Source: a bacterium (lineage in GTDB: Bacteria; Patescibacteriota; Gracilibacteria; UBA4473). Taken from it: DNA of 64,000 nucleotides. Shown here in pieces: positions 35,208 through 41,276 of the stretch. The translations under genes and the position numbers were made by a program. A model generated the notes under the pieces. The model ran no database searches. It was given only the letters and a program-made list of their open reading frames with translations, and was not told where the DNA came from. Numbering within the stretch: the first letter of the stretch is position 1; every line of letters begins with the position of its first letter. The DNA lies in the NCBI GenBank assembly GCA_009995455.1, contig JAACPJ010000002.1, positions 186,001-250,000 on the forward strand, written 5' to 3'.

Positions 35208-35248
35208 AATTTGACTTAAAAACACTTTAACCTAAGTTAGATACACAG

Positions 35249-35296
35249 ATGCAAAATTTGTTTTTAGTTCCCGCTCCCCGTCGCCCGCTTAATTAG
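35249..35296 (+). CDS. Leader peptide of the first attenuator (Pro/Arg-rich)
   Basis: ATG 35249 to TAG 35294-35296, 15 aa MQNLFLVPAPRRPLN. Codons 8-13 are Pro, Ala, Pro, Arg, Arg, Pro (CCC GCT CCC CGT CGC CCG). The stop codon overlaps the 5' edge of an antiterminator arm. It precedes a glutamate-5-kinase-like gene, so a Pro (or Pro/Arg) sensing leader is plausible. The leader-stem-terminator arrangement is seen in sequence; the sensing function is inferred. Confidence 0.7.
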   Translation: MQNLFLVPAPRRPLN

Positions 35297-35372
35297 CGAG
35301 TGATTTTTGCGTATTAACTAAAAACAGAAATTAACTTCACTCGCTCTAAATAAATATAGATCGGGGTTTTTT
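35260..35372 (+). promoter_or_regulatory. Transcription attenuator 1 (before the amino acid kinase)
   Basis: Competing structures: a pause-type hairpin CGCT(35286-35289)/AGCG(35295-35298); an antiterminator AGCGAGTGA(35295-35303)/TCACTCGCT(35337-35345); and a terminator CTCGCTCTA(35340-35348)/TAGATCGGG(35357-35365) with one mismatch, an 8-base loop and T6 at 35367-35372. A further 10-bp pairing GTTTTTAGTT(35260-35269)/AACTAAAAAC(35316-35325) can hold the region together. This is the trp-type four-segment layout. Confidence 0.75.
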
Positions 35373-35383
35373 ATGTAAACATT

Positions 35384-36214
35384 ATGGAAAAAGAAAGAAT
35401 CGGTACCGTCGTTAAAGTAGGCTCATCATCGCTTTACTGCCCTGAGACTTATCAACCTTATCTTGAAAGTTTTGGCAGAATGGCCGCACAGCTAAGACAA
35501 GTTGGAAATAGTAGCCTTATTTCTTCAGGAGCCTACCTAGCCGGTAAAAAATTAGACCCAGAAGAAAATGATACGGGCTATTTGACTAGTATTGGATGGA
35601 AACAATTACTCGATCAGTGGGAGTCGGCTTTTGGTGAACCAATGCCTTCTGTTCTAGCCGAAGAAATACATTTTCATCAAGCCGTATCCGATAACGGTGA
35701 CTATCAACCCGCTCGATTTCAACATATAGTAAAAACATTTGTAAAAGCCTGGGAAAAAAAGAAAACACTCATCACCAATCAGAATGATCCTGTTTCAAAA
35801 GTTGGTTTAGCGCCTGAAATTTTAGATTTTGAAGAAGGCCTGCCTAGCTTTCACGGCGACAATGATCTTTACGCATCAGAAATCACTAGGGCTCTTTTAA
35901 AGCAGAAAACCTTAGATAGAGTCAACTTTATAATTTTATCTGGTGGATTAAACGGTATTACCGATGAACAAGGAAAAACAATTCCAGAAGTGTCAGTCCG
36001 AACAATTAATGAAATGATGCAAAATCCTGGTGCAGCGAGCCGTGAAGGCGCCAATGGATTCCGAACAAAAGGCACGGCGCTATTAAGAGCCCATGAAGCT
36101 GGCGCAGAAGCTTACTTAGGCTCAAGCCAATCAAAGAGTTGTATTCTGGAGGCCGCTGGCCTGAAAACACAAACGCAAGTCACCAAAGTTATTTCTAACC
36201 TCACAGAAGTTTAA
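35384..36214 (+). CDS. proB: Amino acid kinase family protein, glutamate 5-kinase-like
   Basis: 276 aa of the amino acid kinase fold. RIGTVVKVGSSSLY, SSLISSGAYLAGKKL (matching VSSGAIAAG), GDNDLYASEITRALL (matching GDNDxLSAxVA), ILSGGLNGITDE and the late GANGFRTKGTALLRAHEAGAEAYL (matching GTGGMxTKxxAAxxAxxxG) are the landmarks of gamma-glutamyl kinase rather than N-acetylglutamate kinase. No PUA domain. It phosphorylates glutamate for proline synthesis if the assignment is right. It lies directly after the Pro/Arg leader attenuator and just before the arginine attenuator. Symbol is tentative. Confidence 0.6.
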   Translation: MEKERIGTVVKVGSSSLYCPETYQPYLESFGRMAAQLRQVGNSSLISSGAYLAGKKLDPEENDTGYLTSIGWKQLLDQWESAFGEPMPSVLAEEIHFHQAVSDNGDYQPARFQHIVKTFVKAWEKKKTLITNQNDPVSKVGLAPEILDFEEGLPSFHGDNDLYASEITRALLKQKTLDRVNFIILSGGLNGITDEQGKTIPEVSVRTINEMMQNPGAASREGANGFRTKGTALLRAHEAGAEAYLGSSQSKSCILEAAGLKTQTQVTKVISNLTEV

Positions 36215-36217
36215 GCT

Positions 36218-36274
36218 ATGATTTACTCTAAATATTTCCTTCACGCTCGTCGTCGCCGCTACCGTCGGAGGTGA
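36218..36274 (+). CDS. Arginine leader peptide of the second attenuator
   Basis: ATG 36218 to TGA 36272-36274, 18 aa MIYSKYFLHARRRRYRRR. Seven of the last eight sense codons are Arg (CGT, CGT, CGC, CGC, then CGT, CGG, AGG around one Tyr). It starts 3 bases after the amino-acid-kinase stop. The stop codon lies within the antiterminator arm. This is the composition expected of an arginine-sensing leader peptide and is hard to explain otherwise. Confidence 0.85.
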   Translation: MIYSKYFLHARRRRYRRR

Positions 36275-36338
36275 TTTTTTGTACAATTTTTTTATTCATA
36301 AATCACTTCTATACCTCTGTACTAGAAGTGATTTTTTT
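36267..36338 (+). promoter_or_regulatory. Transcription attenuator 2 (arginine) before the arg operon
   Basis: Antiterminator: GGAGGTGATTT (36267-36277, spanning the leader stop) pairs with AAATCACTTCT (36300-36310), 11 pairs including two G-U. Terminator: AAATCACTTCTA (36300-36311) pairs perfectly over 12 bases with TAGAAGTGATTT (36323-36334), followed by T7 (36332-36338). A ribosome finishing the leader would cover the first arm and let the terminator form. One stalled at Arg codons would leave the arm free. Downstream are the 59-aa ORF, GNAT, argG, argH and argS genes. Confidence 0.85.
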
Positions 36339-36349
36339 AATGCAAAACC

Positions 36350-36529
36350 ATGAAAATTTTTAATGCCGGCGACACCCTTTCACTTTATGGCGAAACCGTA
36401 GCTATAAGCAAAGTAGAACAGCTTGTAGATACACAGCTTATTTATTGGCACAGCCAAAACAGTCCCCTGTGTGGGCTAAAAATCCTCACAGAAAAATCCG
36501 AAAAAAACATAACCTTTAATTTAAAATGA
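36350..36529 (+). CDS. Small 59-aa protein, first gene after the arginine attenuator
   Basis: ATG 36350 to TGA 36527-36529. Starts MKIFNAGDTLSLYGETVAIS and contains a WHSQNSPLCGLK stretch. Predicted soluble. Unknown family. The ATGA overlap with the GNAT gene indicates translational coupling, and its position as the first gene under arginine control suggests a small regulator or enzyme partner (inference). Confidence 0.65.
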   Translation: MKIFNAGDTLSLYGETVAISKVEQLVDTQLIYWHSQNSPLCGLKILTEKSEKNITFNLK

Positions 36530-36951
36530 AAATATCTGAATCACTCGCTGACCACATGGCGGATGCTATAGCGCCCCTTTCGGGGGAAGGCATTTTGATG
36601 CCCAAAACTGCCGCCGAGATTTTTGCCAATCAAGATCAATGGTTTCCAAAATTTGGTCCTGATGGAAAGTTACTTGGTTTTTTTGAATTCAGAACTCATC
36701 AAGACACGGCTCTCGCTGAAATGGGCAGCGTGCTAGTTTTAAAGCCAAGGATGGGCGTAGGGCAATGCTTACTGCAAATTTTTAACACTCAGCGTGATAT
36801 TCAAACTGCTAGTGGTGGCTTTGCAGTCACCAAAGATTTCAAAACCGCTTACGGATTTTTTGGCGAGCAAACTCAGGGTGATGTAACAACGCAATTTCCA
36901 GACTGGTTTGAAAGAGAAAAATCTGACCGATATTTCATTCAGTGGAAATAA
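36526..36951 (+). CDS. GNAT acetyltransferase, possibly N-acetylglutamate synthase-like
   Basis: 141 aa. ADAIAPLSGEGILMPKTAAEI at the N-terminus resembles the start of the GNAT half of ArgA (PL-x-x-x-GIL-x-x-x-T/S). The acetyl-CoA binding region is AEMGSVLVLKPRMGVGQCLLQIF (residues about 67-89 by position; R/Q-x-x-G-x-G/A type loop). It lies in the arginine operon between the 59-aa ORF and argG, which favours a role in the first, acetyl-CoA-using step. The family match is loose, so other amino-acid acetylation remains possible. Confidence 0.55.
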   Translation: MKISESLADHMADAIAPLSGEGILMPKTAAEIFANQDQWFPKFGPDGKLLGFFEFRTHQDTALAEMGSVLVLKPRMGVGQCLLQIFNTQRDIQTASGGFAVTKDFKTAYGFFGEQTQGDVTTQFPDWFEREKSDRYFIQWK

Positions 36952-36979: not shown

Positions 36980-38254
36980 ATGCAATCTAAAAACACTTAC
37001 ACCAAAACCGCGAGCCATGAAGCCATAAAAGGTTCGTTCGATACTTGCTTACTGCTCTATTCAGGAGGACTAGATACCTCAACAATGTTGAAATGGATTC
37101 AAGACGAATACCAGTGCCAAGTCATCACTTTAACTATAAATCTCGGTCAAACGGCTGACGATTTAAAAGCGATTCAAAAAAAAGCTTTAGACCTCGGTGC
37201 AAAAGACGCATTTGTTTATGACGCCCAAGAGGAATTTGCCGACACAATCATTACAGAAGCCATTAAAGCAAACGCTGACTATCAAGGTGGATACGCCCTT
37301 TCAACGCCACTTGGGAGAGTCATGATTGCCAAAGTAGCCGTTAATATTTGCGAACAATATAATTGTTCGGTTGTGGCTCATGGTTGTACTGGTAAAGGTA
37401 ATGATCAAGTTCGTTTTGAAGGCTATATAACGACGCTTAACCCAAACCTTAAAACCATCGCACCGGTCAGAGAATGGAGCATGGGGCGAGACGAGCAAAT
37501 TGAGTTTTGTAAAATCCACAATATCCCGGTTAAACAAACCAAAGATAAGCCCTATTCATATGATGAAAACATGTGGGGCAATACCGGTGAAGGCGGCGAA
37601 ATTGAAAACCCAGAACTTGAACCCAAATTACATCAAATTCTGCAATGGTGCCAAACACCTGAGCAGGCACCAGACGAGCCAGCTTTTGTCGAAGTAGAAT
37701 TCTTTAAAGGGATTCCAATAGCTATAAATGGCCACAAAGATAAATTAATGAATCTTATCGCAGATCTTAATAAAATTGGCTCATTACACGCTATCGGCAT
37801 CTTCCCTTTAATTGAAGATAGATTTGTCGGATTAAAAGTCCGAGGCGTGTATGAAAACCCTGGGGCAACAATTTTAATTGAAGCCCACAAGAAGCTTGAA
37901 AAATTAGTTTCTACCCGAGAAGAAAATGAGCTTAAAAGTTTTATCGATACCAAGTGGGCCTATTTATGTTACGCCGCCAAATGGTATGACCCGGTGATGT
38001 ACCATATAAATGCCTTTATTAACAGTATGAATAAAAAAGTTTCGGGAAACGTAAAAGTAAAACTTTATAAGGGGCAAGCGACGGTTGTTAGCCTGAGCTC
38101 TCCTCATTCATTGTTTGATGAAAATTTATCCACCTTTAATAAATCAGGTGGCTTTAACCAGAACGCAGCGGCTGGTTTTATAGAACTGTGGAACCTGCCT
38201 CAAAAGACTGCTTACGGTATGTACAACTGGGAATCAGAACTTAATAAAAACTAA
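36980..38254 (+). CDS. argG: Argininosuccinate synthase
   Basis: Joins citrulline and aspartate using ATP. The PP-loop LLYSGGLDTSTMLKWI (about 24-39), the STPLGRVMIAKVAV region, GCTGKGNDQVRFEGY (about 137-151) and APVREWSMGRDEQIEF are all present. 424 aa, a normal length for the type with an N-terminal extension. The second step, argH, starts three bases after its stop. It is the third protein-coding gene after the arginine attenuator. Confidence 0.96.
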   Translation: MQSKNTYTKTASHEAIKGSFDTCLLLYSGGLDTSTMLKWIQDEYQCQVITLTINLGQTADDLKAIQKKALDLGAKDAFVYDAQEEFADTIITEAIKANADYQGGYALSTPLGRVMIAKVAVNICEQYNCSVVAHGCTGKGNDQVRFEGYITTLNPNLKTIAPVREWSMGRDEQIEFCKIHNIPVKQTKDKPYSYDENMWGNTGEGGEIENPELEPKLHQILQWCQTPEQAPDEPAFVEVEFFKGIPIAINGHKDKLMNLIADLNKIGSLHAIGIFPLIEDRFVGLKVRGVYENPGATILIEAHKKLEKLVSTREENELKSFIDTKWAYLCYAAKWYDPVMYHINAFINSMNKKVSGNVKVKLYKGQATVVSLSSPHSLFDENLSTFNKSGGFNQNAAAGFIELWNLPQKTAYGMYNWESELNKN

Positions 38255-38256
38255 AC

Positions 38257-39561
38257 ATGACACTCTGGAAAACCGATTCCATTGAAAACAACACGCTGCA
38301 AAACCTGATTGAAAAATTTACCGTTGGGAATGACCCCCAATTGGATCAGACGTTAGTCCCCTACGACGTAGACGCTTCAATCGCTCACGCCGAAGGTTTA
38401 GCTTCAATACACATTTTAAACGTCTTAGAACTAAAAAAAATTATTCAAGCTTTGGAAGATATCAAAGCGCTACACGCTAAAAGTCACTTCCCCATTACCC
38501 AAGCCCAAGAGGATTGTCACACGGCGATTGAAGATTTCTTAGTGGAAAAACTAGGCGATACCGGCAAAAAAATTCATACTGGCCGGTCAAGAAATGATCA
38601 AGTATTAGTCGCAATGAGACTGTGGGAAAGAGATACAATTGATCAAATAATTTATTCAACAAAAGAGTTAGCACTTGTTTTTATAAGCTTTGCTAGCAAG
38701 TATGAATTTATGCCCATGCCTGGATTTACCCATACTCAAATAGCCATGCCCAGCAGTATTGGTATGTGGGCTGGCAGCATATCGGAAATGTTACTGCTAA
38801 ATATAGAGGCGCTCACAGACTTTCGAAAAACGCTAAACCGCTCCCCTCTTGGGTCAGCGGCCGGATTCGGAGTCGGATTTAATTTACCAAGAGAAGAAAT
38901 GGCGCAATCGCTTGGATTTGATGGCTGCTTGCAAGTGGCTCTGACGTCCCAAAATATGAGAGGGAAAATTGAAGCTGACTTTGTCAGCCAACTTGTAAGC
39001 CTTAGTGCGACTTTAGCTCATTTTGCGAATGACTTAGTTTGGTTTAGCAGTTCCCCGTTTCAATTTTTTGATGTTGCCCCAGAGTTAACGACGGGATCTT
39101 CCATCATGCCGCAGAAAAGAAATTTAGACCCAGCAGAGCTACTAAGAGGCTCGCACTCTCATATGCTTGGGCACGAATGTTCCCTCAGAAATTTAAGTAG
39201 TCATTTAATTTCTGGCTATCACCGAGACTTACAACTCAGTAAAGAACCAACCATGAAAGCGGTAAACTTAATACAATCTATGTTAGAAATCGCACAGGCT
39301 CTAATAGAAAATATAATGCCTAACGAAGAAGCTCTAATTAAAGCTTTTACACCCGAAATATTTGCCGCCGATAAAGCCAACACCTTAGTGAAAAAAGGCG
39401 TGCCATTTAGAAAGGCTTATCTTCAGGTCAAAAAAGATCTGAGTGATATAAAACCGATGACTAAAGCTGAAATTTTAGAAAACCTAAAATGCAAAACTCA
39501 CTTAGGTGCCTCAGGAAATTTAGGCCTCGATTTATTAAGGCAGCGCTTAACTAATTCGTAA
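38257..39561 (+). CDS. argH: Argininosuccinate lyase
   Basis: Splits argininosuccinate into arginine and fumarate. Fumarase/aspartase superfamily: HTGRSRNDQVLVAMRLW (about 107-122), FTHTQIAMPSS (about 161-171), and the loop signature GSSIMPQKRNLDPAEL (about 281-296). 434 aa. Only two bases separate it from argG, and 29 bases from argS. Confidence 0.97.
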   Translation: MTLWKTDSIENNTLQNLIEKFTVGNDPQLDQTLVPYDVDASIAHAEGLASIHILNVLELKKIIQALEDIKALHAKSHFPITQAQEDCHTAIEDFLVEKLGDTGKKIHTGRSRNDQVLVAMRLWERDTIDQIIYSTKELALVFISFASKYEFMPMPGFTHTQIAMPSSIGMWAGSISEMLLLNIEALTDFRKTLNRSPLGSAAGFGVGFNLPREEMAQSLGFDGCLQVALTSQNMRGKIEADFVSQLVSLSATLAHFANDLVWFSSSPFQFFDVAPELTTGSSIMPQKRNLDPAELLRGSHSHMLGHECSLRNLSSHLISGYHRDLQLSKEPTMKAVNLIQSMLEIAQALIENIMPNEEALIKAFTPEIFAADKANTLVKKGVPFRKAYLQVKKDLSDIKPMTKAEILENLKCKTHLGASGNLGLDLLRQRLTNS

Positions 39562-39590: not shown

Positions 39591-41276
39591 ATGCAACAAC
39601 AAGTCATAGATTATCTTTCAAAAAATTGGAGTGCTGATAACGCCGCAAAAATTGCTTTTTCACCCGTTCCAAAAGGGCAATCTGGCGATCTGGCTATGCA
39701 ATTTTTTGCGCTTACCAAAGAGCTCAAACAGTCTCCGATGCAAATAGGCGCTGAAGTCGCTGGAGTTTTAAAAAATTTCTCTTTGGTCGAAAAAACTGAA
39801 ATGTCGGGGCCCTACTTAAACTTATTTTTTAGTCAGACCGCCTTTTTTGAAAATGTGTTTCAAACACCGTTAACTACCAGTCTCTTTAATGGAGAAAAAG
39901 TCGTGTTGGAATATTCTTCACCGAACACTAATAAACCACTGCATTTAGGGCACATGCGAAATCATGCTTTGGGAATTTCCGTGGGAAACTTGCTCGAAGC
40001 CGTTGGGGCTGAAGTAATTCGCACCGCGATTGTGAATGACCGTGGCATTCATATTTGCAAATCAATGCTGGCTTACCAGTTATTTGGTAACGGGGAAACG
40101 CCAGAGTCTACCGGTGAAAAACCAGATCAATTCGTCGGCCGATATTATGTCAAATTCGGGGCTGAAGTTAAAAAAGACGAATCTTTAAATGAGCAAGCGC
40201 AAGCCTTGCTCAGACTTTGGGAAGAAGGCGATGGCGCCACAAAGCAACTCTGGAAGCAAATGAACGAGTGGACCTACGAAGGCCATAACGCCACTTACGC
40301 TCGGCAGGGAGTGGTGTTTGATAAAAAATATTTTGAATCGCAAACCTATGAACAAGGCCGAGAGTTTGCTTTAAAGGGATTAGAGGATGGCGTGTTTTAT
40401 AAAAAAGATGGTGCGGTCTGGATTGATTTAACCGATCAAGGTTTAGACGAAAAAATTATTATTCGGTCTGATGGAACAACCGTTTACGTGACGCAAGATT
40501 TAGCCACCACCTACCAACGAGTTCAAGACTTTCATTTTGATCAACATATCTGGGTGGTCGCTGATGAACAAAACTATCACTTCCAAGTACTAATTGCGTG
40601 TCTTGATAAACTCGGTCTGGCCGAAAAAGAAAAACTGCATCATTTAAATTACGGTTTAGTAAATCTGCCGGAAGGCCGCATGAAATCACGCGAAGGCACG
40701 GTGGTTGATGCAGACCCACTTATGGACGAGCTACAACGCCTAGTCACCGTAAAAATGCAAGAAACCCATAAAGATGATGATTTATCGGATGTCGAAATTG
40801 AGACGATTTCCGACCAAGTCCAAAACGCCGCCTGGAAGTTTTACCTGCTGAAAACTTCTCCCAATAAAACAATTACCTTTGAAGCCGAAAAATCGATTGA
40901 TTTTCATGGCGCTACCGGACCCTACCTGCAATACGCTGGCGTGCGAATTAAATCCATTCTAGCCAAAGCGAAAGTAGCTGGTTTAAAACCAGATAATACG
41001 GGGGCTTTAGGCGAAGCGGAAAAAGCCTTAGGGGTGAAAATTCTAGAATGGCCTGGCACACTTAACCGAGCTGCAGAAACCAAAAACCCAACCTACGTGG
41101 TGACGTTTTTACTCGAATTAACTCAAGCCTGGTCAAGCTTTTACGCCGAAAACTCAGTGCTTAATGCCGACCACGACGACCTCAAAAAGGCGCGTCTCGC
41201 TCTAGCTTCTAAAGTGCTAGAAGTACTTGAAGCCGGTTTAAATATTTTAGGCATTGAAGTGCCAGAAAGAATGTAA
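39591..41276 (+). CDS. argS: Arginyl-tRNA synthetase
   Basis: Class I synthetase for tRNA-Arg, 561 aa. HIGH is LGHMRNH in EYSSPNTNKPLHLGHMRNHA (about 107-126). The KMSKS-equivalent is RMKSREGTVVDADPL (about 363-377), near the KFYLLKTSPNKTITF stretch typical of ArgRS. A C-terminal DALR-type anticodon domain is present (WPGTLNRAAETKNPTYVVTF). It follows argH by 29 bases without a terminator, so it is probably also under arginine attenuation, an unusual gene arrangement. Confidence 0.96.
   Translation: MQQQVIDYLSKNWSADNAAKIAFSPVPKGQSGDLAMQFFALTKELKQSPMQIGAEVAGVLKNFSLVEKTEMSGPYLNLFFSQTAFFENVFQTPLTTSLFNGEKVVLEYSSPNTNKPLHLGHMRNHALGISVGNLLEAVGAEVIRTAIVNDRGIHICKSMLAYQLFGNGETPESTGEKPDQFVGRYYVKFGAEVKKDESLNEQAQALLRLWEEGDGATKQLWKQMNEWTYEGHNATYARQGVVFDKKYFESQTYEQGREFALKGLEDGVFYKKDGAVWIDLTDQGLDEKIIIRSDGTTVYVTQDLATTYQRVQDFHFDQHIWVVADEQNYHFQVLIACLDKLGLAEKEKLHHLNYGLVNLPEGRMKSREGTVVDADPLMDELQRLVTVKMQETHKDDDLSDVEIETISDQVQNAAWKFYLLKTSPNKTITFEAEKSIDFHGATGPYLQYAGVRIKSILAKAKVAGLKPDNTGALGEAEKALGVKILEWPGTLNRAAETKNPTYVVTFLLELTQAWSSFYAENSVLNADHDDLKKARLALASKVLEVLEAGLNILGIEVPERM

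Follow-up and report, generated by a model that had tools for sequence, protein, structure and literature searches.

A putative arginine-sensing leader peptide attenuator upstream of argG, argH, and argS in a Gracilibacteria genome

The Arg-rich leader ORF, the antiterminator, and the overlapping terminator at positions 36218-36338 are real. We propose, with a probability of about 0.88 as judged from the sequence, that this region, denoted as A2, functions as a ribosome-mediated transcription attenuator whose signal is the charging state of tRNA-Arg, chiefly of the GCG isoacceptor (CGU/CGC). What is established directly for A2 is the ORF, the two structures that exclude each other, the conservation of these structures, and, in silico, the logic of ribosome position. 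All positions refer to the window, which is the whole stretch of 64,000 nucleotides that was analysed. The source assembly is 1.32 Mb and the nearest named relatives of its argG are MAGs of Candidatus Gracilibacteria. By class, the genome falls within Ca. Gracilibacteria (CPR).

Leader ORF and RNA structures of A2

The leader ORF of A2 (36218..36274, + strand), which was identified by sequence reading, encodes MIYSKYFLHARRRRYRRR followed by a stop codon. Its orthologues are MTYPKLYLHNRRRRYRRR (G001), MNFSRLYLHAHRRRYRRR (G002), and MDYTKLYLHARRRRYRCAG (G010). The ORF consists of 18 codons, and Arg accounts for seven of the last eight (CGT CGT CGC CGC TAC CGT CGG AGG TGA). The first regulatory Arg codons, CGT CGT CGC CGC (codons 11-14; 36248..36259, +), were assigned from the sequence and in-silico stalling. 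The antiterminator 5' arm GGAGGTGATTT (36267..36277, +) overlaps the last Arg codons and contains the TGA stop codon. This arm pairs with AAATCACTTCT (36300-36310) over 11 bp, two of which are G-U. The duplex has an energy of -13.0 kcal/mol (z = -4.8) that was equalled by 0/200 shuffles, and the folding z-score of the 125-nt A2 RNA is -2.79.

The intrinsic terminator (36300..36338, +; -13.9 kcal/mol) lies 12 nt upstream of the next start codon. Its stem AAATCACTTCTA/TAGAAGTGATTT (36300-36311/36323-36334) consists of 12 perfect base pairs and the T run that follows reaches 36338. An earlier note on this DNA had described the ORF composition, the TGA within the antiterminator arm, and the 12-bp stem, all of which were confirmed. 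It had also described a terminator run of seven T, which is present but begins within the stem and leaves four T beyond it. The stretch 36300-36310 is both the terminator 5' arm and the antiterminator 3' arm, and the two structures are mutually exclusive. Region 1 (36219..36246, +) is a possible protector that pairs with about 36261-36288 and masks the antiterminator arm. That duplex is weak (-10.6 kcal/mol, shuffle p = 0.04), and such a duplex is significant in only 16/49 leaders.

A2 starts one codon past the stop of a ProB-like kinase gene and is in frame with that stop. A consensus scan for a promoter beside the leader found none, therefore A2 depends on transcription from upstream.

We infer that A2 is translated, that ribosomes stall in it under arginine limitation, and that read-through ensues. 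When Arg-tRNA is sufficient, the ribosome would reach the UGA at 36272 and sit over the antiterminator arm (36267-36277), whereupon transcription would end at the terminator 36300-36338. When Arg-tRNA is short, the ribosome would stall at codons 11-13 and leave the antiterminator arm free to pair with 36300-36310 as that stretch is synthesised. The RNA polymerase would then read through into the 59-aa ORF, the 141-aa gene, argG, argH, and argS.

Folding with the ribosome at different positions

The ribosome-position test consists of folding the RNA downstream of a ribosome that is placed at the first Arg codon or at the stop codon. In the window, the terminator 5' arm is sequestered with a value of 0.76 when the ribosome is at the first Arg codon versus 0.03 when it is at the stop. 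In silico, the antiterminator arm stays available when the ribosome halts at codons 11-13 but not when it halts at codons 16-18, which are the last three Arg codons. The mean arm sequestration over leaders is 0.79 for a ribosome placed on the first Arg codon versus 0.18 at the stop, and spacer shuffles give 0.47. The expected direction of switching was found in 44/49 leaders and the reversed direction in 0. The partition-function test of the G010, G009, and G014 leaders was no better than that of shuffled spacers (duplex p = 0.02, 0.01, and 0.07). Among 52 leaders, the segment at the ORF end that is complementary to the terminator 5' arm has p<=0.05 in 37. In the equilibrium fold of the complete window RNA, the terminator probability is 0.92-0.97 whatever the ribosome state. 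The switching must therefore be kinetic, that is, co-transcriptional.

Downstream genes and argS as a probable target

Of the genes behind A2, argG, argH, and argS belong to the amino acid that it would sense. The 59-aa ORF (36350..36529, +) has no family match; a similar ORF occupies the same position in G001, between the leader and argS. It is followed by a gene of a 141-aa protein (36526..36951, +), by argG for argininosuccinate synthase (36980..38254, +; TIGR00032 and NF001770 above cut-off), by argH for argininosuccinate lyase (38257..39561, +; TIGR00838 above cut-off), and by argS for arginyl-tRNA synthetase (39591..41276, +). This is the gene order that had been given in the earlier note, in which the 141-aa protein was labelled as GNAT. 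That label was not confirmed, as the protein has no Pfam or NCBIfam match. The protein is conserved in the Arg loci of G002, G009, and G014 (37% and 29% identity in two other Arg loci). The sole PF00185 match of the genome, tried as a candidate argF, adjoins pyrC and looks like PyrB. Hence argF seems to be missing, and the A2 operon may make arginine from imported citrulline.

The suggestion that argS might be a target gained support from the genus. G001 and G002, which are without argG, retain the leader, the terminator, and the switch, with a small ORF or the 141-aa gene after the leader and then argS. The argS gene is thus kept downstream in all three genomes of the genus and is the constant target there. 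G001 also exhibits an additional arginine leader, MLTQTVVSNRRRRPS, directly upstream. A leader before argS was considered as a class-wide rule and rejected, because its occurrence was confined to the genus and to loci with argS behind argG/argH. Among other family members, argS is downstream of argG in some and alone and leaderless in others, and stand-alone argS genes of other families had no leader where they were scanned.

The orthologues also bear on translational control, in which stalling within the leader would expose or mask a ribosome-binding site, similar to S. aureus rbfL. The sequence GGAGGTGAT matches the Shine-Dalgarno sequence perfectly, with a TTG coming next; GGAGGTGATTTTTTG occurs in G001 as well as in the window, where the TTG frame runs to the start codon of the 59-aa ORF. 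However, the Shine-Dalgarno-like motif is lost in G010 and altered in G002, while the window, G001, G002, and G010 all retain the terminator and its U tract. The short TTG ORF from the Shine-Dalgarno-like arm was rejected as a feature, as its frame is not conserved. Translational control is therefore quite improbable, and transcription attenuation is preferred.

Arginine leaders in the class

The argG gene is present in 73/353 class genomes. Under strict criteria (a short ORF that starts with ATG and has three or more Arg within five codons, plus a terminator of <= -8 kcal/mol), an Arg leader with a terminator was identified at 24/47 argG starts versus 5/256 control starts, some of which may be true arg leaders. 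Dinucleotide shuffles of the 47 upstream regions (5 replicates) gave no Arg-rich leader with a terminator. Under relaxed criteria and inspection by hand, with operons headed by argF or GNAT counted, 42/47 argG loci have a leader; the leaders were selected by Arg content and terminator, so this set shows enrichment and not universality, and its related sequences are not independent. The remaining five loci (G269, G336, G168, G185, and G229) have none, which goes in part against the earlier note, where relatives with arg genes but without a leader were named as contrary evidence. The predictions of that note that could be computed otherwise held. Other genomes of the class likewise have Arg-codon leaders ahead of their arg genes, and the exclusivity of antiterminator and terminator is kept though the arms differ completely between genera. 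Between the window and G010, the DNA of the Arg-codon stretch is almost identical and the antiterminator and terminator arms have been replaced together. The stem hardly varies within the genus.

The leader shifts to the operon head where argF or a 144/154-aa GNAT-like gene is first (G180, G275, G033, G270, G009, G014, G295, G296, and G312). In G029, an Arg leader lies ahead of a gene of the AA-kinase family. A pair of TTGACA-like and TATAAT-like boxes was found at about 17/52 leaders, with the -10 box ending 6-11 nt ahead of the ATG. A -10 box so close to the ATG suggests that these leader mRNAs are leaderless. A2 in the window has no such close promoter, and the leaders of G010 and G002 likewise abut an upstream stop. 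Argininosuccinate synthase loci sampled outside the class mostly lack the leader.

One alternative is that the hairpin merely terminates the ProB-like kinase transcript at its 3' end and that the Arg-rich ORF is a chance frame. The position of A2 directly behind the kinase stop, with no promoter found beside it, agrees with this. However, with the terminator only 12 nt from the next ORF, argG, argH, and argS can be expressed only by transcription across it, unless the operon has internal promoters. In addition, the leader is conserved behind differing upstream genes and where argG is absent, and both the enrichment of Arg leaders and their codon bias are far above chance. There is only a slim chance that this alternative is correct.

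Several loci carry more than one leader. Tandem Arg leaders were found upstream of argG or argS in G242, G316, G317, G090, and G001 (L114, L119, L123, L132, and L235). G033 (L122) has four Arg-rich leaders in one locus; two of them precede argF, and others precede a LysE-family exporter or lie close to an ADI-family gene.

Codon choice

The codons CGU and CGC make up 139/204 Arg codons in leaders versus 41/315 in argG genes (Fisher p = 1e-38). The genome of the window has tRNA-Arg GCG, TCG, and TCT, and ACG is missing among its 30 best tRNA matches. This agrees with a published account in which CPR bacteria are without tRNA-Arg ACG and decode CGU/CGC by GCG (PMC8629427). UGA is a stop codon in this genome, where argG is without in-frame stops and 2/10 checked genes end in TGA. 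By contrast, families f10, f14, and f21 exhibit many in-frame TGA in argG or other genes. The leaders of f14 and f10 use AGA/AGG only (L101, L104, L105, and L132). The codon choice of the leaders seems to track the codon usage of the family.

Other arginine regulators

ArgR is the usual arginine regulator in bacteria, but it is even less credible than the alternatives above that an ArgR operator, a T-box, or a riboswitch is the sensor here with the leader being secondary: the search for ArgR that the earlier note had proposed found it absent from this genome and above cut-off in 0/353 class genomes, the T-box covariance model had no match in the window or its genome and was above cut-off in 0/192 genomes, and Rfam in the window gave tmRNA and tRNA only.

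In G267 and G309 (L233 and L234), which belong to other families, sub-threshold T-box matches of 81 and 70.6 bits lie immediately ahead of divergent argG-like genes. An Arg leader is also present beside the match in G267. Genes with 63-69% identity to the argG of the window occur in MAGs labelled as Calditrichia and in Francisella (L052, L054, L066, L068, and L094), where horizontal transfer or binning errors are possible.

Comparison with known leader peptide systems

Ribosome-mediated attenuators of the trp/his/leu type are well established, with pheM-pheST as an example in a synthetase operon. A2 is similar to this type in its leader ORF with regulatory codons, a stop codon within or close to the antiterminator arm, the exclusive terminator, and the targets for the same amino acid. 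A2 differs from this type as it would sense arginine, occurs in a CPR host, and lies within an operon behind a proline leader, and the leaders of many relatives look leaderless.

The leader peptides of cysS and hisS (PMC8632094, PMC2965389) share with A2 a short ORF that carries codons for the amino acid and precedes the gene of the cognate synthetase. However, they use Cys or His and are found in Rhodobacterales or Bacillus. The orf34 of Salmonella speF (PMC6386406) is a uORF with consecutive Arg codons that sense arginine, but it controls ornithine decarboxylase via Rho, RBS masking, and RNase G without an intrinsic terminator. The rbfL of S. aureus (PMC13009471) is an arginine-responsive leader peptide with Arg codons, but it acts by translational RBS occlusion of a biofilm regulator and uses the rare codons AGA/AGG. 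A2 has a terminator and therefore falls outside speF/rbfL-type control, which works without an intrinsic one. Many leaders of the class resemble the leaderless leader peptide mRNA of Sinorhizobium trpL (PMC10117765), which senses tryptophan and for which the leaderless start has been demonstrated, whereas it is only inferred for the class.

No leader peptide attenuator that controls arginine biosynthesis or ArgRS, and none from CPR/Patescibacteria, was found described in the open-access literature that was searched. Judging from the sequence features, A2 is very probably trp/his-type attenuation with a new specificity, arginine, of which no description was found in this lineage within that literature. 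If this is true, it would show how arginine can still be sensed by reduced genomes that have no ArgR. Testable predictions then concern the leader ORF, the isoacceptor-specific codon choice, and the control of argS by the charging of its own tRNA.

A second leader upstream of the ProB-like kinase

A second leader ORF, A1 (35249..35296, +), encodes the Pro-rich MQNLFLVPAPRRPLN before its stop codon and has its own antiterminator and terminator. The antiterminator 5' arm AGCGAGTGA (35295..35303, +) pairs with TCACTCGCT (35337-35345), and the terminator with its T run (35340..35372, +) has an energy of -5.4 kcal/mol. A candidate promoter, TTGACT-N16-TAAGTT (35211..35238, +), was identified by eye and ends 10 nt before the ATG of A1. 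Its -10 box is weak and the consensus scan did not list it. Downstream of A1 is the ProB-like amino-acid kinase gene (35384..36214, +), which matches TIGR01027 with E = 1e-8, below the cut-off (34.8 of 186 bits). Its counterparts in G001 and G002 score 91 and 97 bits.

The A1 counterpart of G001, MQMQTTVLVSTPQPPLS, has Pro codons and no Arg codons and precedes genes that resemble proB, proC, and proA; the ProA match exceeds its cut-off. G002 has MRNISLVPTPRRPLN in the A1 position, and G007 has a Pro-containing leader ahead of its kinase homologue. The Pro codons of A1 are thus kept in G001, G002, and G007, while its Arg codons are not kept in G001. In silico, A1 switches clearly in the window and in G001, but there is no switch in G002 (0.27 versus 0.26). 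These features suggest that A1 is probably a proline-sensing attenuator.

A broader picture, which we put forward tentatively and hold as possible, is that Arg and Pro leader attenuators, often leaderless and sometimes in tandem, replace repressors for amino-acid and synthetase genes in Gracilibacteria. The Arg leaders would read one isoacceptor, tRNA-Arg(GCG), through codons that the genes avoid. In the window, the Pro and Arg attenuators would act in series, where argG, argH, and argS would be read only if both permit. As a side observation, the argG match of G007 (L011) holds one in-frame TAA, which is possibly due to a pseudogene or an assembly error.
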